Under the pieces are notes generated by a model. The model saw only the letters and a list, made by a program, of their open reading frames with translations. It ran no database searches and had not been told where the DNA came from. Below, one piece after another: positions 1,725-46,476 of a DNA stretch of 46,589 bases (position 1 is its first letter; every line of letters begins with the position of its first letter). Position numbers and translations under genes: made by a program. The DNA lies in assembly GCA_022825945.1 (NCBI GenBank), contig JAJDVS010000090.1, positions 1 to 46,589 on the forward strand. Direction: 5' to 3'. This stretch comes from Pseudomonadales bacterium. Its GTDB lineage: Bacteria > Pseudomonadota > Gammaproteobacteria > Pseudomonadales > Pseudohongiellaceae.

Positions 1725-1754
1725 GCCGTGAATTCCTACGGCGCAGGCTCCTAG
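1725..1754. repeat. Dispersed palindromic repeat A, copy 1 (overlaps a stop codon)
   Basis: Core GAATTCCTACGGCGCAGG followed by CTCCTAG. The same string is at 14446-14470, and a near-identical one in the opposite orientation is at 5574-5601. The bases CTA at 1751-1753 are the TAG stop of the minus-strand TonB receptor, so the repeat starts at that gene's stop codon. Confidence 0.8.
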
Positions 1755-4261
1755 ATTTCATAGCTGAGTTCGATGCCGAGGCTGCGCGGGCGGGCGATGG
1801 TGAGCCTTTCGCGGTCATTGCCGTAAAAGGACGAAAGAACGGCGCGTTCGTCGGTCAGATTGTCGATGCGGGCGCCAAGCCGCCAGTTGCCGCGGCTGAG
1901 GCCGGCGCTGAGACCGATCAGGGTCCAGGCCTCCTGTTCGATGCGGTTGATCAGCACGATATCGCTCCAGGACGACCCGGAATGGCTGAACTGGGACATG
2001 ATCCAGGCGTCCCGGCCATTGTCCAGGCGCCATTCATAGCGCAGCCGCAGACTTGCCTGGAAGCCCGGCGCATTGGCGAGTTCGCTGCCGGCGGGGGCGA
2101 TGGCCGAAGTGGTGGAAATCGTTTCCAGAATCTCGCTGTCGAGGATGGACAGGGCCCCGCCGAAACTCAGGCCCTCGATGGATTCGGGAAGCCAGATGAA
2201 ATCGCCTTCGATGCCCCGCACCCGAACATTGGCGGCGTTGTCGGAAAAATACAGGTTCACGATATTGGAATCGAAGATCGTGGACTGGAGGTCATCGATG
2301 GTCTCCACAAAGGCCGACCAGTTCAGTTGCAATCTGCGGTCCGCGCTCAGGGTCTTGCCGCCGATTTCCCGATTCACCAGTCTGTCGGTGCGCACCAGCC
2401 CCGGCACCACGCCCCCCGCCCCCACGGGCCGGTTCAGCAGGGGCGGTCGAAAACCTTCGGAATACGTGGCGTAGAAAAGCTGGCCCGGTCGCGGCGTCCA
2501 GGCCAGGTTGAGCTTGTGGATATTGCCCCTGGCATTGCCGGTGTCCGGCAGCGCGACGGTTTTCCCTCCCACCAGGGCCGTACCCGTGCCGTCGTAGAGC
2601 GTGGACAGGTTGACGCCGAAACGCTGCCGGTCCTCGGTCTGGCCGAAATTGCCGAAGGAAGCATTGGCGCTGCCTTCCAGGTCCACATCGATTTCGTAGT
2701 TGCGGATGCCGGCGGTGAGCCTGAGGGTATCGGGCATCAGTTCCCAGCTTGCTTCGGCGAAAACCCCGTATTGCTCATCGGTGCGGCGAATATCGTTGCG
2801 GAAGACCACGCCTTCGGGGAATGGCCCCGGATCCTGCCGCCAGGCGCCCGGCAGGGGGTAATTGGGCGCGAAACCGAATGCGCCGGGGGTGAAACTCTCG
2901 GCGTTTACTGATGAGGGATAGGTGAAATCATTCAGTTCCAGGATTTCGGTATCGCTGAAAAAGACGCCGAAGGTGGAGCGCAGGCGGCTGTCCCGGGGCG
3001 TGCTGAAGCGCAGTTCCCGGGAAAAGACGGTGGACCTGGTGTTGCCACTCACCAGGGTGCGGGCGTCGTGGCAGGTCCCCGCGGGCGCCTCGGAGGGATA
3101 GGTCACCGAAGCGTCGCAGATGTAGTACGGCAGGTACTGGCCTATGAAGAGGTAGTCGGTGTAATCGATGACGCTGTCGACTTCGCGGTCGAGCCAGGCG
3201 GTGGCGAGCACGGCTTCGAGCTCGCCGAGGCGCCCTTCGAGAGTCAGGGCGCTATTGTCGAAACGGTCATCCGCGCCTTCGTCGATGAACCGCTGCACCG
3301 ACAGTTCATCGGCGTCATCGAGATTGGGGTCGATCAGGAATACGCCGTCGGCGTCGATGCGCTGCCGCATGTGGCTGAGGGTCAGGCGCCAGTCGGGATT
3401 GAATTCGTACAGGCCGGACACGCGGAAGCCTTCATAGCTGACGGGATTGATGTCCTCCCCGACAAATTCGGCATTGTCGGTGCGGACGAAGTTGACCGCC
3501 GCAAGGTCCGCCCCGGCCTGGAAACCTTCCCCGGCGACACCGAGTGGAACGCCATTGCTGCGCACGAGATCGGCGGGTTCGAAGCGGCGCGAGCGGGAAA
3601 CGTCGATTTCCCCCGGCATATTATCGATATAACCGCCCTGATAGTCCGAATAGACGACTCCCCGCAGGGCGAAATCATTGTTCACCGGCAGGTTGAGCAC
3701 GGCTTCGGCCCTGGCGCCGGGAGCGCCATTGGCGGTGGCCGAAACGCCCACGGAAACCCGGGAGGAAAAACCATCGAGATCGGGCTTGGCGGTAATCAAT
3801 CTCACGTTGCCCGCCTGGGAGCTGGCGCCGAACAGGGTGCCCTGGGGGCCGGAAAGCACTTCCACCCTTTCCAGGTCCGCGGCGTAGACATCGAGATTGC
3901 GGCCGGGCTGGGTAACCGGCTGCTCGTCGAGATACAGGGCCACATTGGGGGTCAGCCCCGCCACCGCGGCGACGGAAATTGTCGGCGTGGTGGAAGCCAC
4001 GCCGCGAATGTAGATCGTGCCCTGGCCCGGCCCGCTGCCGCCGGCGGTCAGGCCCGGCATATGGGCGAGATAGTCGCTGAAATTGCGGATATCGAGCTGT
4101 TCCAGGGTTTCCGTGCTGAACGCCCGCAGGGCGATGGGAACGTCCTGGGCCACTTCCGGGCGCCGGGTGGCGGTGACTTCGATGACTTCGATCTGGGCCT
4201 GGGCCTGATGGAACAACAGCGGAGACGAGGCAATCAGGGATCTTGCAATGGATTTTTTCAT
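1751..4261 (-). CDS. TonB-dependent outer-membrane receptor
   Basis: The 836-residue product has a signal peptide (cleavage near QAQA, about residue 22) and the start of a plug domain at IEVIEVTATRR. The plug contains the typical signatures TIYIRGV, VALYLDEQPV and LERVEVLSGPQGTLFGA (about residues 80-150). A large beta-barrel follows and ends in SLGIELSYEI, the aromatic-rich last strand needed for outer-membrane assembly. Such receptors import ligands too large for porins (siderophores, cobalamin, glycans and others) using TonB energy; the ligand here cannot be read. There is no N-terminal FecA-type signalling domain. It is monocistronic and divergent from argF, and its stop codon lies inside repeat A. 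Confidence 0.92.
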   Translation of the reverse strand: MKKSIARSLIASSPLLFHQAQAQIEVIEVTATRRPEVAQDVPIALRAFSTETLEQLDIRNFSDYLAHMPGLTAGGSGPGQGTIYIRGVASTTPTISVAAVAGLTPNVALYLDEQPVTQPGRNLDVYAADLERVEVLSGPQGTLFGASSQAGNVRLITAKPDLDGFSSRVSVGVSATANGAPGARAEAVLNLPVNNDFALRGVVYSDYQGGYIDNMPGEIDVSRSRRFEPADLVRSNGVPLGVAGEGFQAGADLAAVNFVRTDNAEFVGEDINPVSYEGFRVSGLYEFNPDWRLTLSHMRQRIDADGVFLIDPNLDDADELSVQRFIDEGADDRFDNSALTLEGRLGELEAVLATAWLDREVDSVIDYTDYLFIGQYLPYYICDASVTYPSEAPAGTCHDARTLVSGNTRSTVFSRELRFSTPRDSRLRSTFGVFFSDTEILELNDFTYPSSVNAESFTPGAFGFAPNYPLPGAWRQDPGPFPEGVVFRNDIRRTDEQYGVFAEASWELMPDTLRLTAGIRNYEIDVDLEGSANASFGNFGQTEDRQRFGVNLSTLYDGTGTALVGGKTVALPDTGNARGNIHKLNLAWTPRPGQLFYATYSEGFRPPLLNRPVGAGGVVPGLVRTDRLVNREIGGKTLSADRRLQLNWSAFVETIDDLQSTIFDSNIVNLYFSDNAANVRVRGIEGDFIWLPESIEGLSFGGALSILDSEILETISTTSAIAPAGSELANAPGFQASLRLRYEWRLDNGRDAWIMSQFSHSGSSWSDIVLINRIEQEAWTLIGLSAGLSRGNWRLGARIDNLTDERAVLSSFYGNDRERLTIARPRSLGIELSYEI

Positions 4262-4290
4262 GACGCAATCGCTCTGGTTCAGGTGGATGC

Positions 4291-4445
4291 CCAGCTATTC
4301 TCATTATGGTAGCGGGCGCGCTCATATCAGTCATCCCGCGCGCAGTCGCAGTATCTCATTGGGTGGCCACCGCGGGAGATTCTGCGACTGCGCTTCGCTT
4401 CGCGCAGAATGACATGAAGGTTGGAGCGCCAAGATGAGAATTGCT
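4291..4445 (+). mobile_element. 155-bp palindromic MITE-like element, copy 1, with 9-bp target duplication
   Basis: The element starts CCAGCTATTCTCAT and ends ATGAGAATTGCT, giving imperfect terminal inverted repeats of about 19 bp. It is a long palindrome centred on GGTGGCCACC (4362-4371), with arms reading GCGCGCAGTCGCAG and CTGCGACTGCGC. It is flanked by a perfect 9-bp direct repeat, GGTGGATGC, at 4282-4290 and 4446-4454. By eye it matches the reverse complement of 45227-45381 with about 19 differences over 153 aligned positions. It encodes no protein and lies between the TonB receptor start and the argF promoter region. The remainder of the 4262-4531 gap is discussed under the argF promoter. 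Confidence 0.85.
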
Positions 4446-4463
4446 GGTGGATGCTTCCATTCA

Positions 4464-4531: not shown

Positions 4532-5419
4532 GTGCGCCATTTCCTGACGCTCAACGATTTGCCCCCGGCAGAGCTCGAAGCCATCGTGCGGCGGGCCATC
4601 GCGCTCAAGGCGGAGCCGGGGCTTGCCGCGGACCTTCGCCGCAAGACCCTTGGGCTGATCTTCGAGAAGGCTTCCACCCGCACCCGCATCGCCTTTGAAA
4701 CCGCCATGGCGCAAATGGACGGCGCCAGCATCTTCATGACCACCGTAGACAGCCAGCTTGGCCGGGGCGAACCCATCGAAGACACCGCCAGGGTGATCTC
4801 CCGCATGGTGGACTGTGTGGCGATCCGCACCTTTGACCATGCCCTGCTCGAACGTTTCGCGGCGCATTCCCGGGTGCCGGTGATCAATGCCCTCAGCAAC
4901 GATTTCCACCCCTGCCAGTTGCTTGCCGACATCCAGACCTTCGTGGAACACCGTGGCGCCATCACCGGCAAGACCGTGGCCTGGATTGGCGATGGCAACA
5001 ATGTCTGCCAGTCCTACATCAACGCCGCGGCGGCCTTTGATTTCCGGTTGCGCATCTGCTGCCCGCCGGGTTTCGAGCCCGGGGCGGACCTGCTCAAGGC
5101 CCGTGGCGATCGTGTTTCCCTCAGCCGCGAACCGGCGGCGGCGGTTCGCGACGCCGAACTTGTGGTTACCGATGTCTGGGCCAGTATGGGAAAGGAGAAA
5201 GAAAGCGCGGGGCGCCTTGAGACTTTCGCCGGATTCCAGGTCAACAGCGAGTTGCTGTCGGGCGCGGCGCCGGATGCGCTGTTCATGCATTGCCTGCCCG
5301 CCCACCGCGGCGAGGAAGTCAGCGCCGAGTTGCTGGAACGGGAAGATTCGGTGGTCTGGGACGAAGCCGAAAACCGGCTGCATACCCAAAAAGCCCTCAT
5401 CGAATACCTTCTGAACTAG
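4532..5419 (+). CDS. argF: Ornithine carbamoyltransferase
   Basis: It transfers the carbamoyl group of carbamoyl phosphate to ornithine to give citrulline in cytoplasmic arginine synthesis. The 295-residue length fits the family. The carbamoyl-phosphate motif STRTR is at residues 48-52, HPCQ at 126-129 and the ornithine-loop signature HCLPAHRG around Cys254; DVWASMGKE at about 215 matches the SMG loop region. The start is GTG at 4532, since the nearby ATG at 4512 is out of frame and soon stops. The gene stands alone on the plus strand and converges with the quinoprotein gene at 5595. The first hairpin of a hairpin array begins at the last base of its stop codon. Confidence 0.95.
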
Positions 5420-5562
5420 GGAAGCTCTGATCAAGTCAGAGCTTCCCTGCGGCACATGGAAGTGCTCCCGAATTCGATGGCGTAAGCCATTGAATTCGGG
5501 AGCAAAACAAAACCACGCTTTTGTTTTGCGATAATGAAAAAACTCCACGGATGGAGTTTTTC
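5419..5562. repeat. Array of consecutive perfect hairpins between convergent genes
   Basis: Three hairpins precede the terminator-like one listed separately. Hairpin 1 has arms 5419-5430 and 5436-5447 (12 bp, loop TCAAG). Hairpin 2 has arms 5464-5481 and 5486-5503 (18 pairs, one of them G-U as RNA, GTAA loop of the GNRA class). Hairpin 3 has arms 5502-5512 and 5519-5529 (11 bp, A/T-rich). Hairpins 2 and 3 share bases 5502-5503. The array fills nearly the whole gap between argF and the convergent quinoprotein gene. Confidence 0.85.
5538..5561. terminator. Bidirectional terminator-like hairpin
   Basis: AAAAACTCCA (5538-5547), loop CGGA, TGGAGTTTTT (5552-5561). It has an A tract on one side and a T tract on the other, so it could end transcription from argF and from the convergent gene. 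About 33 bases beginning GCGATAATG recur almost unchanged at 14410. Confidence 0.6.
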
Positions 5563-5573
5563 AGAGAATACTT

Positions 5574-17125: not shown

Positions 17126-18559
17126 TCAACTCCGATTCTGGCGCTTTTGCAGGCGGCGCCTGCGGGCGATCCGACGCGGGTCCAATCGTTGTTCGTCCCT
17201 GGCATAGGGATTGTCATCGTTACGCAATTCGATCCGGACCGCGAGCCCGACAAGCTCCAGGGCGTCGCGAAAACTGTTTTGCAGGTAGCGCCGGTAATGC
17301 CCCGGCAGTTTGTCGAGTTGCTTGCCGTGGATCACGACGCGCAGGGGATTGTGCCCTCCCAGGTGGGCATAGCGCAATTTGATGCGGCGGCCCTGGGATA
17401 ACGGCGGCGGGCTTGCGGCGACGATTTGCTCGAGCATTCTGGTCAGCGCCGCCGTGGAAACGCTCTTGCGCGAGGACTGCCAGGCGGCGTCCACGGATTG
17501 GTACAGATTGCCGACGCCGCTGCCGTGCAGCGCGGAAATGAAATGGCGCTGCGCAAAATCCACAAACCCCAGGCGGCGGTCGATTTCGCGCTTGAACCAT
17601 TGTCTGCGATGTTCTTCGAGCCCGTCCCACTTGTTGCACGCCAATACCAGGGCCTTGCCGGTTTCCACGATGTGGCCGAGCAGATGCAGATCCTGATCCA
17701 CCACGCCTTCGCTGGCGTCGATGAGAAAAACCACCACATCGGATTCGGCGATGGCCTGCAGCGACTTGATGACCGAAAATTTCTCCACCACGCCCCGGGT
17801 CTTGCCCCGGCGGCGTATGCCGGCGGTGTCGATGAGGGTGTAGGCCCGACCCTGGCGCCGGAAAGGGATTTCGATGCTGTCCCGGGTGGTGCCGGGCTCG
17901 TCGAAAACCAGCACCCTGTCTTCGCCCAGCATGCGGTTGACCAGGGTGGATTTGCCCACATTGGGGCGCCCGATGAAACTGATGCGGGTGGCTTCCGCCC
18001 CGGTCGGGGGGATGTCCTGTGCGGATGGCGGGTGGGTGTCCCGGGCTGGCGCGTTCGGGGATTGGGCGACGTCGATGGCGGCGAATGCTTCGCGGATAAG
18101 GGCCTTGACGCCGGTTCCCTGGCTGGCGGCAATGGCGAAAACGGCTGCGGCGCCGAGTTCATGGAATTCCGCCCGGGCCTGGTCCGGGTCTAGGCCGTCG
18201 GTCTTGTTCGCCACCACAAGGCAGCGCTTGCCCCTTTCCCGCAACCGCTGGTGAATGCGGCGGTCTTCCGGGGTCAACCCGTCCCTGGCGTCGAGGACGA
18301 ACAGCACCAGGTCGGCTTCCTCGATGGCCAACAGGGCCTGGGCGACGACTTCCCGATCAATGCCTTCGGCATGACTGCTGATGCCGCCCATGTCCACTGC
18401 GAGAAACTGCCTGCCGTCGAGTTCGCCCGCGCCGTACTGCCGGTCCCGGGTCAATCCGGGAAAATTGATCATCAGGGCGTCCCGGCTTGCGGTGAGTCGA
18501 TTGAAAAGGGTGGATTTGCCGACGTTGGGGCGACCGGCAATGGCGATTACGGGTTTCAT
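17126..18559 (-). CDS. der: Ribosome-assembly GTPase Der (EngA)
   Basis: The 477-residue product has tandem GTPase domains and a C-terminal KH-like domain and acts in 50S subunit maturation. The two P-loops are both GRPNVGKST, at about residues 9-17 and 198-206. Switch motifs include FPGLTRDRQYG and EPGTTRDSIE; G4 motifs are NKTD and NKWD. The first G3 motif reads VDMGGIS, where DTGG is usual, and the second DTAG is normal. The linker (ARDTHPPSAQDIPPTG) is Pro-rich. The KH domain ends in RIELRNDDNPYA and a basic tail. It is last of the conserved housekeeping block, 161 bp after bamB, with a cruciform and a G tract between them. Confidence 0.96.
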   Translation of the reverse strand: MKPVIAIAGRPNVGKSTLFNRLTASRDALMINFPGLTRDRQYGAGELDGRQFLAVDMGGISSHAEGIDREVVAQALLAIEEADLVLFVLDARDGLTPEDRRIHQRLRERGKRCLVVANKTDGLDPDQARAEFHELGAAAVFAIAASQGTGVKALIREAFAAIDVAQSPNAPARDTHPPSAQDIPPTGAEATRISFIGRPNVGKSTLVNRMLGEDRVLVFDEPGTTRDSIEIPFRRQGRAYTLIDTAGIRRRGKTRGVVEKFSVIKSLQAIAESDVVVFLIDASEGVVDQDLHLLGHIVETGKALVLACNKWDGLEEHRRQWFKREIDRRLGFVDFAQRHFISALHGSGVGNLYQSVDAAWQSSRKSVSTAALTRMLEQIVAASPPPLSQGRRIKLRYAHLGGHNPLRVVIHGKQLDKLPGHYRRYLQNSFRDALELVGLAVRIELRNDDNPYARDEQRLDPRRIARRRRLQKRQNRS

Positions 18560-25650: not shown

Positions 25651-25918
25651 TAGTGTGCTGTCCCACAAGTTCGCCGCATTTCAGAGCGGTCCTGAAGCGT
25701 CAATGCAAGGCGCCGTCCGCGGGCAATACCGAGAGTATTGCCAAGGGCGGCAACGCCGCGGTGGCGCTTCAGGACCACTCCCGAAGGGCGCGTCCCCCGC
25801 GGCGCGTGGCCGCGTTGCGCTCCTTGGCAATGGGGCCGGCCATTACCTGCGAACCGCGCCTTGCCACACACCGCGGGGGGCGCGCTGAAATACGGCGAAC
25901 TTGTGGGACAGCACACTA
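25651..25918. mobile_element. 268-bp element with 34-bp terminal inverted repeats (MITE-like)
   Basis: Left arm 25651-25684 and right arm 25885-25918 are inverted copies of 34 bp with one mismatch, beginning TAGTGTGCTGTCCCACAAG. The TA at both ends would fit a TA target duplication as made by IS630/Tc1-mariner elements. The interior is highly structured: GGTCCTGAAGCG (25688-25699) pairs with 25765-25776, GGCAATAC/GTATTGCC (25722-25742) is nested inside it, and GCGCGTCCCCCGCGG pairs with a stretch near 25871-25885. There is no credible protein. A partial tip, TGTGCTGTCCCGAT, lies just outside (25638) and again at 35752. The element fills the 310-bp ndk-rlmN gap. Confidence 0.82.
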
Positions 25919-26397: not shown

Positions 26398-26436
26398 CGC
26401 GGCGTTACCTGGTTTAGTGGGAGAATTTGCGTCTCG

Positions 26437-26563
26437 CGGCTGCTCGCCTTTGGCCCGGAGAGGTGTGCGGCGGACGTCGTAAATACATCCCTATAGACTT
26501 CGGGCTCGACTTCCTGTCTCGCACGCCCACTGCACACCTCTCCGGGCCAAAGGCGAGCAGCCG
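26437..26563. repeat. 32-bp perfect inverted repeat with 63-bp spacer
   Basis: Arms 26437-26468 and 26532-26563 are exact reverse complements (CGGCTGCTCGCCTTTGGCCC and onward). The spacer includes GTCGTAAATACATCCC and CTCGACTTCCTGTC; the latter 14-mer recurs at 34493 in the repeat block upstream of the ATP-grasp gene. It starts 12 bp after the ileS stop and could form a very stable 3' hairpin, or it may be a small mobile palindrome. Confidence 0.85.
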
Positions 26564-26575
26564 CTTACGGCGGAT

Positions 26576-30441: not shown

Positions 30442-30730
30442 TGTCATTCCGGGCGTGGCGAAATCTCCACCCCTGTCATCCTGCGCGCAGCGAAGCTCCC
30501 AATCCCTGTCATCCTGCGCGCAGCGAAATTCCCAATCCCTGTCATCCTGCGCGCAGCGAAATTCCCAACCCCTGTCATCCTGCGCGCAGCGAAATTCCCA
30601 ACCCCTGTCATCCTGCGCGGAGCGAAATTCCCAACCCCTGTCATCCTGCGCGGAGCGAAGCGTAGTCGCAGGATCTTGTCGGATGACCGCCGCTCTCTGG
30701 ATGGGATCCTGCGACTGCGCGCAGGATGAC
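30442..30730. repeat. 33-bp tandem array fused to a palindromic element
   Basis: Copies of a 33-bp unit (TGTCATCCTGCGCGCAGCGA plus AATTCCCAACCCC) begin at 30474, 30507, 30540, 30573, 30606 and 30639, with a degenerate copy at about 30442. The last copy runs into GCGTAGTCGCAGGATC, a 57-base right part (30674-30730) and the closing arm GATCCTGCGACTGCGCGCAG. Units start TCATCCTGCGCG, the outer arm of the 155-bp element. Because 33 is a multiple of three, all frames stay open and repeat an 11-residue motif, but no real gene is apparent. It fills most of the 389-bp gap 30372-30760. Confidence 0.9.
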
Positions 30731-34352: not shown

Positions 34353-34358
34353 CGTCCG

Positions 34359-34427
34359 GATATTTTCATTTTGGCGTTTCAACTTTCTTGTCATTCTGCG
34401 CGAAGCGGAGCGCAGTCGCAGAATCTC
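34359..34427. repeat. Half copy of the 155-bp MITE-like element
   Basis: It begins GATATTTTCATTTTGGCG and continues through GTCATTCTGCGCGAAGCG to AGTCGCAGAATCTC, parallel to 45229-45298. The second half is absent. Confidence 0.7.
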
Positions 34428-34737: not shown

Positions 34738-35727
34738 TCACCCATAATACGCGTCCGTGTCTCCGGTGAAGGTGAAGTCGTCGGCGTCTATTTGATCCAT
34801 CTTGACGTCGTACAGGGTGATCATGTTGTCGTCGCCGAGTTTGATGATGGTCACGGGCCTGCCGCCCAGGCTTCCCAGGGAGGTGGTCTCGCGGATCTCC
34901 AGGTCCGAAAATCCCGATATGCCGCTATAGCCGGAAACGTCGATCTTGTCGTTGCCGCCTTCCTTGGCGAAGTTGAAGATCGTGTCCTTGCCGCTGCCGG
35001 GAGCGAATACAAAGCGGTCATCCCCGCTGCCATCGTAGAGCCAGTCGTTGCCCGCGCCGCCGATCAGGGTGTTGTTGCCCTCGATGCCGCCGACAATGTC
35101 GGCGTCGGCGCCGCCGTCCAGGAAATCGTTGCCGGCGCCGCCCCGCAGGATGTCCGTGCCGGCGTTGCCTTCCAGATGGTCGTCGCCGGCGTCGCCGTTC
35201 AGCTCGTCATTGCCTTCGCCGCCGTACATCCTGTCATTGCCGGCGCCGCCGTGCATTTCGTCCTTGCCGTCGCCGCCATGCATGTTGTCGCGATCGCCCT
35301 CGCCCCGCAACACGTCATCACCCTGATATCCCCGCAGGTAGTCCTGGCCGGAGGTGCCGGTCAGCTCGTCATCGCCGCGGGTGCCGGGGCCCAGCAGGAA
35401 TACATGCTTGATGGTTTCAAGGGTTGTCGAGTCGAAGATCTGGGTCGACTGCAGACGGAGGATTCCGCCATCCCACTCCCGGAGGTCGATTTCGATCGTC
35501 AAGCCCGACGCATTCCTGAAATCATTGTAGGTCTTGATGTTTTCCTTGAGTTCCTCCCAGGTGATGTCCGTGCCGAAGTCCGTCAGGTCGATGGTGTCCT
35601 GCCACACATTGAACTCCCGGACCCAGTCGATGCCGCCATTTCCCGGCTTGACGATATAGTTGTCGGCGCCCCATTCCGAAACGAATTTCTCTCCGCCCTC
35701 TTTCTTGAATGTCCAGTTTCTTGCCAT
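34738..35727 (-). CDS. RTX-type calcium-binding protein, probably secreted by type I secretion
   Basis: The product is 329 residues. There is no N-terminal signal peptide. After about 115 residues of mixed sequence comes a block of glycine/aspartate nonapeptides (GDDVLRGEGDRDN, GGAGNDRMYGGEGNDELNG, GGAGNDFLDGGADADIVGG), which fold as a calcium-binding beta-roll. The C-terminal end DQIDADDFTFTGDTDAYYG resembles uncleaved type I secretion signals. It has no recognised catalytic domain, so it may be structural or adhesive. ATG 35727 is chosen because GGGAGG lies eight bases upstream. No type I transporter genes are nearby. Confidence 0.85.
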   Translation of the reverse strand: MARNWTFKKEGGEKFVSEWGADNYIVKPGNGGIDWVREFNVWQDTIDLTDFGTDITWEELKENIKTYNDFRNASGLTIEIDLREWDGGILRLQSTQIFDSTTLETIKHVFLLGPGTRGDDELTGTSGQDYLRGYQGDDVLRGEGDRDNMHGGDGKDEMHGGAGNDRMYGGEGNDELNGDAGDDHLEGNAGTDILRGGAGNDFLDGGADADIVGGIEGNNTLIGGAGNDWLYDGSGDDRFVFAPGSGKDTIFNFAKEGGNDKIDVSGYSGISGFSDLEIRETTSLGSLGGRPVTIIKLGDDNMITLYDVKMDQIDADDFTFTGDTDAYYG

Positions 35728-38250: not shown

Positions 38251-38422
38251 TCATCCTGCGCGCCCCACCCCCGTCATTCTGCGCGCCACACCCTCGCCAT
38301 CCTGCGCGCCACACCCTCGTCATTCTGCGCACCCCACCCCCGTCATTCTGCGCATAGTCGCAGAATCCTGTCGGATGGCCGCCGCCCTCTGGATGAGATC
38401 CTGCGACTACGCGCAGGATGAC
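38251..38422. repeat. 23-bp tandem array fused to a palindromic element
   Basis: Units TCATTCTGCGCGCCACACCC plus TCG begin at 38251, 38274, 38297, 38320 and 38343, exactly 23 bp apart. The last runs into GCATAGTCGCAGAATCC and a 57-base right part (38366-38422) differing from 30674-30730 at about five positions. It fills most of the 285-bp gap between the ABC ATPase and the DUF4252-like gene. Confidence 0.88.
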
Positions 38423-42206: not shown

Positions 42207-45092
42207 TCAATACGAATAGGTCAATTCCACGCCGTACAACCTTGGCACGGTGGTGCCCGCGTTATGGCGGAAGAATTCCGCTTCCCCCTGGCGCAGTATC
42301 TGCAGATTGGCTACGTCATCGAAGATGTTGTTGACAAATCCGCTCATCACCCAGTTGCCGGCTGCTGAAGTCCATGTGGCCCGCAGGTCGGTGCGGCTGT
42401 AGGCTTCGGCCTTTTCCGCCTCGGACTGGAAGGGCGAGAAATACACGTCATCGGTCCAACTGAAGATACCGAACAACTCCAGTTGCGAGCCGCCGGAGAG
42501 CGGGATCAGATAGCTGCCCCAGGCGGTGGCCTTTCCTTCCGGCACCTGCAGGAGCTGATTGCCATTGATGTTCTGGGTCAGGCTTTCAAACTCGGGATAG
42601 AGGGAGCCCGGCACATTGCTGTTGCTGCTGTCGCTGATCAACAGGTCCCCGGAGTACTCGCTGGGCGTGAAACTGAAATTGCCGCCGAGGGTCAGATTGT
42701 CGTTCACCAGCCAGAGCGCTTCGGCTTCGGCGCCGATGACCCTGGCGCCGGGAGCTTCCAGCACCGAAGTGGAGGTTCCGCCGATGGTGGTGACTTCGGT
42801 GCCGACCGTGTGAATATTGTCGTAGTCGTAGAGATAGAACGAGCCGTTAATCCGCAGGGTATTGTCCAGGAAATCGGTCTTGTAGCCGATCTCGTAGGCA
42901 ACCAGTTCTTCGGGATCGTAGGTGGGCGTATTGCTGAAGAAAACCAGATTGTACCCTCCGGAGCGGTAACCCGACGTCGCGGAAAAATAGATTAGCGCCG
43001 AATCGCTCACATTCCAGTCGAGATTGATTCTCCCGGTGGTCTTCCGGTCGGTTCTCACGAAGGGGCGATATACGCTCAGGGCAAAGGGAATGCCGCCATT
43101 GGTCACTTTTTCCGTGGGAACGATCATGTTGCCGTCGGCATCCGCCACGAGACCGCCATTGATGCGGTTGACCACGGCCAGGCCGCCGTACAGCGCGAGA
43201 AAGGAGGCGGCGCCGGTTTCCGAATAGCGCCACAGGTTTTCTTCCGCCGTTACCTGGTCTTCGGCGTAACGCACGCCAAGGGTCAGGTCAAAAGTCTCAT
43301 TGATGTTCCACACTCCCTGGGTATAGGCCGCGAAGGCTTCCCGCACGGTCTGGGTGGCGTAGAGCAGGTCCGAACCGGCGGTTGACGGGCCGTTGAGTAC
43401 GTTCAGGGCGGGATTGCTGCCGTCGTCACCGTACCAGGCGGAGGTTTGCAGGTTATTGCCGCCACCATTGCGCTGGCAGGATTCCGCGGGGCTTGCCACG
43501 TTGCAGGATTCCCTGGCGCTGAACAGATTGACCATTGGCCTGCCCTGGAAGGCCAGGGTGGATGCGTTGATGCCGGCAAGACCCGGCGCGCCGATGGCGG
43601 CCGCCGCCGGCGCGCTCAGGGCCGTGTTGTCCTCGTAGGGGACGCGCATTCGCGAATCGGCCAGGGTGGAGTGAAAATCGCCGCGCTGGTCGATGGTGGC
43701 GTCATAGATGAAATAGCCCGAGGTGATCGATACCGAATCGCTGATGTCGTAGAAAGCCTGAATCTCATGGGAGGTGTAGTCGGCTTCGTGATTCACGTAG
43801 AACTGACGGTCATGGAACAGGCTCGCGGTATTGTCATCGTCGGTATTGCGCTTGTAAGTGAGTTCGTTAAAGCCGAACAGGTATTTCAATTCCAGACGGT
43901 CGTTGACATCCCAGGAAGCGCTGAACTGTGTGCCCTGTTGTTCAAATACTTCCCGGTTCAATCCATTGGTCGCCGCGCAGAGATCGTTCCCGTTGATATC
44001 CCCCGGGAAGACACAGGCATTGTATCGGGCAGCGCTTGCCGGGGACGTGAAGTTGAATCCGTCCAGGGAGGCCGCGGCATTGAGAAAGCCATTGAAATCC
44101 CCGAAGTCTATTCCCGGGCGGTTGCGCTGGGCCTGGTCGAGACTGCCCGTGGTGGGATTGACAAAATTCAGGATGGGCTGGCTCTGATCGTACCAGTTGT
44201 TGCTGTCGTAATTGGCCATGTCGGTGTTGCCGGTATCGATAAGGCGGTAGCCGGGCACCAGGGCGTCGGTCACGCGATTGGGGAAGCCTCCTTCGTTCAG
44301 CACCACGAGGCCGGAGCCATTGGCGCCGCCGAAGGAACGGTCGATGGTCATGAAATTCTGCCGGACGTTAACCTCCACGGTATCGCTTGGCGTCCACCGG
44401 AACTGGCCCGCGACGTTTTCCGTGCCCAGGCCATCGATGGGATCGTGGCCGCCGATATCCTCCACGATGCCGTCGCGGTCGCGGAGGCTGAAATTCACCC
44501 GGGCGGACAAAGTGTCTTCCATCAGCGGCGTGTTGAACATGCCATACAGTTCACTGGTGCCGAAGTTTCCGAGAATCGATTTGACCGAATAATCCAGCTC
44601 GTCCCCGGGCGGGTTGTAAAGCACGTTGATGGCGCCGCCCACGGCGTTGCGACCATACAGCGTGCCCTGGGGGCCGCGCAAAATCTCGATTCGCTCCACG
44701 TCCCAGAAGGTGGCGGCGGTGGCCGTCAGCAAGTCCTCGGAATAGATGCCGTTCATATAGGTGGCGACGCCCGGGTCGCCGCCGAGGGCGCGAAAATTCC
44801 GGCCCACGCCCCGGATCGTGGAATCGTAGGGCTGGATCGTCGTTGCCGGAATGAAGTTCTGCAAATCTTCCTGATTGCGAATGCCGAAGTCGTCAAGCGA
44901 TTCGGCGGTAAGTGCGGTAATGGAAATGGACGTATCCTGAATGGAAGCTTCCCTGCGCTCCGCAGTCACGGTCACTTCTTCGATTCGCCTGACGCCATCG
45001 TCCTGGGCGAATAACGCCAGCGGGGCGCAGGCCGCAAAAAACAGCGCCGATGCGCCAATGAACGATCCGATTCTTCTTGCTTGATTTTCCAT
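42207..45092 (-). CDS. TonB-dependent outer-membrane receptor (large)
   Basis: The 961-residue product has a signal peptide ending near LALFAQDD. The plug starts at IEEVTVTAERREASIQDTSI and contains YDSTIRGVGRNF, VATYMNGIYSED and VERIEILRGPQGTLYGRNAV. A long barrel with extended loops follows; loops with paired cysteines (ARYNACVFPGDINGNDLC; ARESCNVASPAESC) may be disulfide-stabilised. The last strand is RLYGVELTYSY. ATG 45092 is preceded by GGAGGGAACGGAAG. The substrate is unknown. It is monocistronic, with repeat A copy 5 in its 5' leader region. Confidence 0.92.
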   Translation of the reverse strand: MENQARRIGSFIGASALFFAACAPLALFAQDDGVRRIEEVTVTAERREASIQDTSISITALTAESLDDFGIRNQEDLQNFIPATTIQPYDSTIRGVGRNFRALGGDPGVATYMNGIYSEDLLTATAATFWDVERIEILRGPQGTLYGRNAVGGAINVLYNPPGDELDYSVKSILGNFGTSELYGMFNTPLMEDTLSARVNFSLRDRDGIVEDIGGHDPIDGLGTENVAGQFRWTPSDTVEVNVRQNFMTIDRSFGGANGSGLVVLNEGGFPNRVTDALVPGYRLIDTGNTDMANYDSNNWYDQSQPILNFVNPTTGSLDQAQRNRPGIDFGDFNGFLNAAASLDGFNFTSPASAARYNACVFPGDINGNDLCAATNGLNREVFEQQGTQFSASWDVNDRLELKYLFGFNELTYKRNTDDDNTASLFHDRQFYVNHEADYTSHEIQAFYDISDSVSITSGYFIYDATIDQRGDFHSTLADSRMRVPYEDNTALSAPAAAAIGAPGLAGINASTLAFQGRPMVNLFSARESCNVASPAESCQRNGGGNNLQTSAWYGDDGSNPALNVLNGPSTAGSDLLYATQTVREAFAAYTQGVWNINETFDLTLGVRYAEDQVTAEENLWRYSETGAASFLALYGGLAVVNRINGGLVADADGNMIVPTEKVTNGGIPFALSVYRPFVRTDRKTTGRINLDWNVSDSALIYFSATSGYRSGGYNLVFFSNTPTYDPEELVAYEIGYKTDFLDNTLRINGSFYLYDYDNIHTVGTEVTTIGGTSTSVLEAPGARVIGAEAEALWLVNDNLTLGGNFSFTPSEYSGDLLISDSSNSNVPGSLYPEFESLTQNINGNQLLQVPEGKATAWGSYLIPLSGGSQLELFGIFSWTDDVYFSPFQSEAEKAEAYSRTDLRATWTSAAGNWVMSGFVNNIFDDVANLQILRQGEAEFFRHNAGTTVPRLYGVELTYSY

Positions 45093-45135
45093 CTTCCGTT
45101 CCCTCCGATTGTGCAATGCTGCCGTCAATTGACCA

Positions 45136-45158
45136 GGGAGCCCGCGCCGCAGGCTCCC
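45136..45158. repeat. Dispersed palindromic repeat A, copy 5
   Basis: GGGAGCC, nine bases, GGCTCCC: seven perfect pairs. It lies 44 bp upstream of the TonB receptor start, the only copy in a 5' leader. Confidence 0.7.
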
Positions 45159-45226
45159 GGGACCAACCGTGCAATCGAGCATAATGGCATGGATACAGCA
45201 CAGTCAAAGAGTTTTTTGACCCCTGA

Positions 45227-45381
45227 CCAGCAATTTTCATTACGGCGCTCCAACTCTCATGTCATTCTGCGCGAAGCGAAGCGTAGTCGCAGAATCTCAT
45301 ACGGTGGCCACGCAATGAGATCCTGCGACTGCGCGCAGGATGACCGATATGAGCGCGCCCAATGCCAAAATGAGAATTGCT
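45227..45381 (-). mobile_element. 155-bp palindromic MITE-like element, copy 2, with 9-bp target duplication
   Basis: Same length as copy 1 and in opposite orientation. Perfect direct repeats GACCCCTGA lie at 45218-45226 and 45382-45390. Arms read GTCATTCTGCGCGAAGCGAA and TTCGCTTCGCGCAGAATGAC in relation to copy 1. It lies in the 322-bp gap between the second TonB receptor and the MBL-fold gene; nothing else is seen there apart from repeat A copy 5. Confidence 0.85.
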
Positions 45382-45414
45382 GACCCCTGACTGCAAAATT
45401 TCCATGGATTGAAG

Positions 45415-46476
45415 CTACCTGTTCTCCAGCAACTGGTAGATGCGGTCGATGGCCCTGGGGTCGGCGCCCGGGCCCTGTATCTGGGGAAAGTTGGCAGCAT
45501 GATGCGTCATGTCGACGGTGGCGGCGGTTTCCGCGGCGGGAACGCCGTTTTCGTGCATCCCGGCCACTGTGTCCCAAAGGTCGCGGAGATAGCTCTGGAA
45601 GTTGTCGATAGGTTCGCGGGAGCGCATGACCGGGCCGTGTCCGGGCAACCAGATATCGAAATCCAGGGACTTCAATCCTTCCAGCGCGGCCGGCCATTCG
45701 TCCACATGACCGTCGCCCATGTAGGCCAGGCCCGGCAGCATCATGTCGCCGGTAAAGACGACGCGCTCATGGGGCAGGAAAATCACCACGTCGCCGCCGG
45801 TGTGGGCGCGGCCGAAATGACGCAGTTGAATCTCCCGGCTGCCTCCCGCAACAACCTGGAACAGGGTCATCTTGCGGTCCAGGGTAATATTGGGCGGGGT
45901 CGGCACGACTTCCCCGATGGCGTTCATATAGTCGCTTTGCACCCGGTGCCGTTCTTCGAGTTCGGCCCGGCGGCGCGGGTCGTTTTCGTTGGCGGCCTGT
46001 TCCTTGAGTTGGGCGACGAGGGTCGGTACGGAGTCAGAAAAGCTGCGGAAGGTATTTTCTTCCAGCACGTTGCCGATATCGCCGTTGAGCTTGGCCCGGG
46101 TGAATTCGTGGCCAATGATTTCGACGCCTTCGGGAAAGGCCTGATTGCCGTGGGCGTGATCGAAGTGGTAGTGGCTGTTGACGAGGTAGCGCACTGGTTT
46201 TTCGGTGATCGCGGAAATCGAGTCAATGAGCGCCCGGGCTGCGGCGGGGGTAACGTGGGAATCGACCACGAGGGTGTCGAATTCGCCCACGAGCACCATG
46301 GCGTTGCTCATGGTATGAACGGCGCCGGTACCCATGACATGCCAGACGCCTTCGGCCACTTCCTCAAAGCGATGGGTGTCCGACTCAACCACCTGCTCCT
46401 GGGCGGCGATCTGTCCTGCTGCGAGACCTCCGATCAGCAGGCCCAGGCAGCGCAATCCTGTCAACATGGTTTTCAT
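45415..46476 (-). CDS. Exported metallo-beta-lactamase-fold hydrolase
   Basis: The 353-residue product has a signal peptide ending near GQIAAQEQ. Zinc motif NSHYHFDHAHGNQAF (HxHxDH, about residues 101-106) is present, with the later His in GRAHTGGDVV, Asp in VFTGDMML and His in LPGHGPV. All five or six metal ligands are therefore present. The fold hydrolyses diverse esters, lactams and thioesters; substrate unknown. Some exported members accompany quinoprotein systems, which would suit this region, but linkage is not shown. The remaining 113 bp of the window (46477-46589) show no gene. Confidence 0.88.
   Translation of the reverse strand: MKTMLTGLRCLGLLIGGLAAGQIAAQEQVVESDTHRFEEVAEGVWHVMGTGAVHTMSNAMVLVGEFDTLVVDSHVTPAAARALIDSISAITEKPVRYLVNSHYHFDHAHGNQAFPEGVEIIGHEFTRAKLNGDIGNVLEENTFRSFSDSVPTLVAQLKEQAANENDPRRRAELEERHRVQSDYMNAIGEVVPTPPNITLDRKMTLFQVVAGGSREIQLRHFGRAHTGGDVVIFLPHERVVFTGDMMLPGLAYMGDGHVDEWPAALEGLKSLDFDIWLPGHGPVMRSREPIDNFQSYLRDLWDTVAGMHENGVPAAETAATVDMTHHAANFPQIQGPGADPRAIDRIYQLLENR

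Follow-up and report, generated by a model that had tools for sequence, protein, structure and literature searches.

The window analysed here, a stretch of DNA of 46,589 nucleotides, corresponds to contig C98 of a draft genome of 2.64 Mb, assembled in 113 contigs. It contains two copies of a 155-bp repeat in opposite orientation, as an earlier note on this DNA had described; they are about 88% identical (87.7% by blastn) and also form the inverted-repeat pair I1. The copies, named MITE below, their terminal inverted repeats and target duplications, and two related features of the window are the following (G numbers denote genomes of the compared set):

6-1712: window insertion sequence (IS) with a 464-aa DDE_Tnp_1_4 (PF13701) transposase and 14-bp ends ATCCCCTGATAAGA
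4283-4291: target duplication GTGGATGCC, left of copy 1, 8/9 identical to 4447-4455
4292-4446, minus strand: MITE copy 1, 155 bp, CAG…CTG, with the left end (GGCGCTCC side) at 4446; empty site in G018 and G032
4292-4310, plus strand: terminal inverted repeat of copy 1, 19 bp, 2 mismatches to CAGCAATTCTCATTNTGGC
4327-4413: REP-like palindromic core of copy 1, GTCATYCTGCGCG…CGCGCAGRATGAC, coordinates projected from the consensus
4428-4446, minus strand: terminal inverted repeat of copy 1, 19 bp, 1 mismatch to CAGCAATTCTCATTNTGGC
4447-4455: target duplication GTGGATGCT, right of copy 1, 8/9 versus GTGGATGCC
34357-34427, plus strand: one-ended remnant of the MITE (decayed end with 4 mismatches and first about 70 bp), 89% over 66 bp
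45219-45227: target duplication ACCCCTGAC, left of copy 2, 9/9 identical to the right one; single ACTCCTGAC in G446
45228-45382, plus strand: MITE copy 2, 155 bp, CAG…CTG; empty site in G446
45228-45246, plus strand: terminal inverted repeat of copy 2, 2 mismatches
45261-45347: REP-like palindromic core of copy 2, coordinates projected from the consensus
45364-45382, minus strand: terminal inverted repeat of copy 2, 0 mismatches
45383-45391: target duplication ACCCCTGAC, right of copy 2, 9/9 identical to the left one

The copies had originally been placed at 4291-4445 and 45227-45381, bounded on both sides by GGTGGATGC and GACCCCTGA, respectively. Both pairs of boundaries are exactly as described and the sites stand, but the register has to be shifted by one base to the right to suit the remaining copies of the family. 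With this shift the ends become symmetric (CAG…CTG); for copy 1 alone, the former frame gives a 9/9 duplication and the corrected one 8/9. A unit of 155 bp has room for at most 51 codons, in agreement with the lack of coding capacity that had been ascribed to it, and the IS of the window does have different ends, as had also been stated (14 bp, DDE_Tnp_1_4 type). Copy 1 has a TonB-receptor gene (1751-4261, minus strand) on one side and a carbamoyltransferase gene of the aspartate/ornithine type (4532-5419, plus strand) on the other; the longest TonB-receptor frame has its first ATG 21 bp from the left duplication. Copy 2 is flanked by a second TonB-receptor gene (42207-45182, minus strand) and by a gene for a metallo-beta-lactamase-fold protein (45415-46476, minus strand). 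Finding two insertions upstream of TonB receptors may be due to chance (n=2). A reading of AATGAGAAT, present beside both TonB-receptor genes, as a Fur box was dropped, since by eye it is a half-site inside the inverted repeat. Copy 1 showed one weak promoter-like match and no terminator-like match, and the window gave no match to Rfam at gathering thresholds.

When the same genome was searched by BLAST with copy 2, at least 63 matches had E ≤ 0.001, with 40 of 268 first-pass candidates scored, and the 19-bp end CAGCAATTCTCATTNTGGC was found at 105 sites when up to three mismatches were allowed, the reversed pattern being found at none. End-paired elements were defined as two inward-facing ends within 400 bp with enough flank, and 31 of them were present in this genome among the loci fetched. 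Their flanking 9-mers were identical in 14 cases, matched at 8/9 in four and at 7/9 in five, and matched less well in eight; 9-mers taken 20 bp further out as a control agreed with at most one mismatch in none of the 31. Other copies therefore do not lack the flanking repeats on which the earlier note had made its reading depend, 18 of the 31 pairs being at 8/9 or better. The eight pairs with three or more mismatches and the poor duplications of G018 (none of five pairs reaching 8/9) are counted against the best explanation. Over all groups read, 64 of 137 end-paired elements had 9/9 duplications and 24 more were at 8/9 (control, 0 of 137), the chance of 9/9 for a single flank pair being about 4e-6 with equal base frequencies. 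The 64 perfect targets showed a weak preference, with G as the first base in 27 and C as the last base in 24. The end-paired copies of this genome are 91-254 bp long (about 50-600 bp is expected of MITEs), carry no transposase gene, have terminal inverted repeats and are flanked by target duplications of a constant length, 9 bp. That the 155-bp repeats are a MITE family is thus well supported.

The sites of both window copies are not fixed among related genomes, and orthologous loci lacking the element, the comparison that the earlier note had suggested, were found for each of them. At the site of copy 1, G018 and G032, both from the same genus, have TTCAG-ATGGATGCT-TTCATT, with a single copy of the target and no element; at this position G446 carries an unrelated insert of about 90 bp (C4 near 18282-18372, L230). 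At the site of copy 2, G446 has AGTTTTTC-ACTCCTGAC-CGCATTG, where the target is again present once and the element is missing. G018 and G032 were not counted as empty here, since alignment on the left side reaches the site and on the right side starts only 24-34 bp beyond it. The many copies, the inverted repeats, the different 9-bp targets and the empty sites indicated that the unit moved as a discrete element, as had been claimed. Other insertions are common to several species (e.g. the locus pairs L005/L256, L027/L258 and L085/L259). Since both window copies are missing from relatives while these insertions are shared, the window copies look younger than the insertions shared between species, and the MITE set offers insertions that differ between sister species.

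Sixteen 155-bp copies of this genome have a mean identity of 88.7%, and their consensus folds into one long hairpin, helix 1 of which is 94.8% paired over 32 copies. Both ends of the element are alike for 19 bp and then diverge (GCTCC… and AATGGG…). In a covariation test of the hairpin the paired cells and the covariation score were reached by 7 and 6 of 500 shuffles, respectively, and pairs changed on both sides numbered 4 versus 4.2 in the shuffles, the relatedness of the copies being uncontrolled in this test. The equal length attributed to the copies holds for the two in the window and for 17 of the 31 pairs of this genome, but not for the family, which ranges from 91 to 254 bp. Three pairs are 186 bp long, and lengths of 217 and 248 bp also occur, all of them being 155 bp plus multiples of 31 bp; the 31-bp steps are tandem copies of GTCATTCTGCGCGAAGCGAAGC plus 9 bp, and the remaining lengths (91, 93, 139-153, 167, 188 and 254 bp) correspond to deletions or other arrays. 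At one site with near-identical flanks the element is 248 bp long in this genome and 155 bp in G446, and at a second site, with a weaker match of the left flank, it is 186 bp long in this genome and 155 bp in G032. Since length at the same site differs between species, the array changes length after insertion: the internal 31-bp unit is amplified in place. This constitutes a natural case of a minisatellite changing length inside a transposon after insertion.

Tandem units of 23 nt and 41 nt inside MITE-like elements are described for BrickBuilt and 464/PgRS of Porphyromonas gingivalis (PMC4596501). The present family resembles BrickBuilt-type elements in carrying a tandem repeat between its ends whose copy number varies (155+31n; 248 versus 155 bp at one site). 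It differs from BrickBuilt and 464/PgRS in its ends and in its unit, the 31-bp unit being one arm of the hairpin core, and in that a length change at the same site between species and 9-bp duplications are documented here. The core palindrome of the MITE also occurs without ends: the window has 20 core motifs, versus 0.3 expected in Markov sequences, four of them inside the two elements, one in the remnant at 34357 and 15 elsewhere.

A further mark of a MITE is an IS that shares its ends and its duplication length, and the earlier note had proposed to look for one with such ends. It was present in other bacteria; neither this assembly nor the searched genomes of the genus yielded one. The IS with MITE-type ends are 1.4-1.9 kb long and occur in cyanobacteria and Methylococcaceae; their ends have 0 to 3 mismatches to the MITE end, and several have 9-bp duplications. 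In Arthrospira sp. PCC 9108 the IS is 1418 bp long, three of the four copies read have 9/9 duplications and none of the four has a full-length frame. The IS of a Methylococcaceae MAG (1451 bp; L417) has a 449-aa frame and one flank cut by the contig end, and that of a Synechococcales MAG (1420 bp; L436) has a 435-aa frame and unlike flanking 9-mers, with no duplication. Six relatives on plasmids were read, three of them with both ends and 9/9 duplications: those of Anabaena cylindrica (1876 bp, CAGCAATTCTCATTTTGAA at both ends, duplication GGCAACGAC) and Calothrix (1865 bp, ends with 3 and 2 mismatches, duplication GAAATATAC), and the more distant one of Saccharobesus (ends CAGCAATTATTGG, duplication TAAATAAAG, 9/9). 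The Gloeothece plasmid IS has both ends and unlike flanking 9-mers, the Methylomagnum plasmid locus has one end only, and no clear ends were found at the Aureispira plasmid locus.

In an alignment of six sequences of the transposase (A1), residues D132, D221 and E345 are invariant and are putatively catalytic. The 449-aa protein falls below the curated cut-offs of the related profiles (PF01609, 15.2 bits versus 23; NF033591, 15.4 versus 152), other members having better E-values, at best 3.4e-5 and 4.5e-6 among the six sequences of A1. A profile search of PDB sequences gave nothing convincing (one match, E 0.48). A structural model of the 449-aa protein was of modest confidence (mean pLDDT 66.8, pTM 0.69); with it, Foldseek returned six PDB matches at E ≤ 0.001, namely five Tn5 transposase chains and 1b7e, a 'transposase inhibitor' which we take to be the Tn5 inhibitor. 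The best Tn5 match had an E-value of 5.1e-11 and a TM score of 0.49. Accordingly, the transposase of about 450 aa is predicted to fold like Tn5 transposase. Tn5 has 19-bp ends and generates a 9-bp duplication, so that the likeness to Tn5/IS50 (IS4 family) would extend from the predicted fold to end length and duplication length. The differences from Tn5/IS50 lie in the end sequence, in the 12-15% identity of the Foldseek alignments and in the Tn5 N-terminal domain, Pfam PF14706, which was found in 0 of 37 genomes of the genus, the one under study included. One relative, WP_013335080.1 from Gloeothece verrucosa, is annotated as 'ISNCY family transposase', ISNCY being a label for unclassified IS; this transposase is 41% identical and its IS has ends CAGCAATTCTCATTTTGGA and CAGCAATTCTCATTTTGAA, the 9-mers beside this copy not matching.

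We consider it highly probable that the MITE was moved in trans by the Tn5-like transposase lineage of the matching IS and that its REP-like core expands and contracts in place. The proposal of a non-autonomous transposon mobilised in trans, already made in the earlier note, is supported by the copies, the inverted repeats, the 9-bp duplications and the empty sites; from the sequences we infer that this lineage moved these copies, by a cut-and-paste chemistry. A Tn5-like DDE transposase supplied in trans would bind the 19-bp ends CAGCAATTCTCATTNTGGC, excise the MITE and join it to a target with a 9-bp stagger, whose repair would leave the 9-bp direct repeat. The lineage recognising these ends would be the one carried by the full IS of about 1.4-1.9 kb of cyanobacteria and Methylococcaceae; in the genome under study the autonomous match would be absent or unassembled, with a divergent complete relative on contig C53 and a partial one on C60 remaining. 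Between the ends, the 31-bp unit of the REP-like hairpin core would expand and contract after insertion.

A similar arrangement has been put forward for MITEAba12 (PMC6382973), a short, non-coding element of 111-114 bp that has terminal inverted repeats, is flanked by 9-bp duplications of its target and has been suggested to depend in trans on an IS sharing its ends; it belongs with ISAba12 (GGCTTTGTTGCA-type ends in the table on relatives). The present family is like MITEAba12 in its small size, lack of coding capacity, inverted repeats, 9-bp duplications and proposed trans mobilisation by a same-ended IS; it is unlike MITEAba12, which is nearly constant in length, in its ends CAGCAATTCTCATTNTGGC and in a length varying by an internal repeat.

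The exact partner IS is absent from, lost from or unassembled in this genome, and this constitutes the main gap. Profile searches of 84 genomes of the genus detected relatives of the transposase in five of them (this genome, G036, G436, G172 and G465), and none in G446, G018, G022 and G032, which are rich in MITE ends. Only divergent relatives were found in the genome under study, with a complete frame on C53 and a partial one on C60. It would be possible that a resident relative of this kind, either the C53 IS or active copies elsewhere in the genus, moved the MITE in spite of ends that share only CAGCAATTC with it. The C53 IS (1620 bp) is the sole family member with a complete frame found in this genome and has 9-bp duplications CCCTACTTG, and within the same genus G036 encodes a complete protein of 438 aa that keeps the acidic residue at each of the three positions, its IS being flanked by duplications GCGCTGATT. 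Nevertheless, transposases are usually strict about their ends, and those of the C53 IS (CAGCAATTCCCG…) coincide with the MITE end over the first nine bases, CAGCAATTC, and then diverge, giving 6 mismatches, versus 0 to 3 for the cyanobacterial and Methylococcaceae IS. In addition, the third catalytic position is a glycine in the C53 protein and a glutamate in all eight other sequences aligned there, a count that leaves out two further rows in the wrong frame or misaligned. The IS of G036 and G436 have ends of the divergent C53 kind and 9/9 duplications; G172 has 18 transposase matches, mostly decayed or partial among the matches listed, and G465 a fragment. We therefore regard mobilisation by a resident relative as unlikely. 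An IS with the exact 19-bp ends was not found among the 84 genus genomes searched with the transposase profile, the three IS whose ends were readable (from this genome, G036 and G436) having divergent ends. No IS was found between paired ends when searched inward from the listed single ends of G000, G018, G022, G032, G446, G464, G465, G021 and G036, a search that covered the ends listed (e.g. 47 of the 100 sites of G446); pairs of ends separated by more than 1 kb either showed four or more mismatches between their 9-mers or met a contig end at a flank. IS of the PF01609 type were rejected as partners, since none of 18 matches in four MITE-bearing genomes, several of which are cut by contig ends, had MITE ends on both sides; one match (L196) has a single MITE end nearby.

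A further alternative to movement by the lineage of the matching IS is that the ends come from another IS family, as yet unseen, and resemble those of the cyanobacterial and Methylococcaceae IS by convergence, as might fit host genomes without a matching IS. In 390 sampled genomes of the order (8 in the genus), sites with at most one mismatch to the end were many only in the genome under study; outside it there was one site in each of three genomes (G172, from the genus, G096 and G275), versus one site of the reversed control (in G093). The end CAGCAATTCTCATTNTGGC is thus near chance in the sampled genomes of the host's order, which argues against convergence, as does the agreement in 15 to 18 of the 18 specified positions at each of the two ends, which, combined with an equal 9-bp duplication, is very unlikely to arise by chance. 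We give convergence very little credence.

Still weaker, and hardly tenable, is the reading as generic REP/BIME-type DNA spread by a RAYT-type or gene-conversion process with flanking repeats arising by chance: 15 of the 20 window core motifs do lie outside both elements and the 34357 remnant, and among the matches listed those of G036 and G021 cover the core only, but REP/BIME elements are palindromes of 20-40 bp without long inverted-repeat ends or target duplication, whereas the whole unit has symmetric 19-bp ends that recur on coding IS, duplications of 9 bp far in excess of the control, and clean empty sites. For the whole unit this reading is already refuted by the empty sites, and it stands for the core alone. 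Consequently, of the original contrast between a defined transposon and generic REP-type DNA, the first part holds for the whole unit and the second has to be qualified, the core palindrome being REP-like outside the element as well.

Among the 84 genomes of the genus, sites with at most two mismatches numbered 100 in G446, 88 in the genome under study, 52 in G032, 40 in G018, 19 in G022, 11 in G021 and 7 in G464, and 0 to 4 in the others. When 84,980 species genomes were scanned for the exact end, using a pattern that excludes the subterminal bases of this MITE, at least 119 loci (L338-L456) were obtained, to which one genome can contribute many; most are from MAGs, and L359 and L385 come from G032. 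According to the depositors' titles, these loci include Verrucomicrobia, Akkermansia, Methylococcaceae, Acetobacteraceae, cyanobacteria, Chloroflexi, Gemmatimonadetes, Desulfovibrio, Omnitrophota, Acidobacteriota and others. The 71 short end-paired elements that they contain, not chosen by their flanks, had 36 perfect duplications and 13 at 8/9 (control, 0 of 71). One element per locus, the pair with the best-matching 9-mers, was present in 63 of the 119 loci; these 63 formed 36 interior clusters by single linkage, none of them like this MITE at E ≤ 0.01, and 83% folded more strongly than mononucleotide shuffles (z below -3). The surprise is that the end appears, on the loci compared, to stay almost the same from phylum to phylum even as transposases and interiors diverge. 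Tentatively, it might act as a trans-phylum transposition currency, in which CAGCAATTCTCATTNTGGC stays almost fixed while transposases diverge to about 41-58% identity and the cargo is repeatedly replaced by unrelated hairpins; we find this conceivable, with the balance somewhat against it. If true, MITEs could persist in a lineage after their own IS has gone and be mobilised anew by any incoming IS of the group from another phylum. The 19-bp signature and the 9-bp duplication link orphan hairpin repeats in many phyla to one transposase lineage. A literature search of 5.39 million papers, with ISfinder outside its scope, found none containing the 14- and 13-base strings taken from the end or from its reverse complement, and it gave no description of this transposon system.

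The MITE sequence was not found in plasmids, and the transposase was not found in phage records; viral contigs contained two distant transposase relatives and one single end. Other elements of the genus have the same kind of end and different interiors (G022 L159-L171, G036 L296, G021 L224 and G465 L291), several of them being palindromic by eye. Further repeats were observed in the window. A non-coding repeat of about 155 bp at 5417-5571, formed by a chain of short hairpins (AGGGAAGCTCTGATCAAGTCAGAGCTTCCCT… GAAAAAACTCCACGGATGGAGTTTTTC), has ends unlike those of the MITE; among the matches listed it has dozens of 90-98% copies in G446, G018 and G032 and copies at 86-92% in G464, G465, G036 and G021, and a plasmid search with it gave no match. 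Tandem core-motif arrays with periods of 33 bp and 23 bp, at 30461-30658 and 38252-38366, respectively, lie beside core hairpins and have no 19-bp ends. The 27-nt repeats at 35038-35376 resemble by eye, on the minus strand, RTX-type (GNDxLxG) nonapeptide repeats. Two additional inverted-repeat pairs are located at 25651-25918 (38-nt arms, 95% complementary, 192 nt between them) and at 26436-26564 (42-nt arms, 93% complementary, 45 nt between them).
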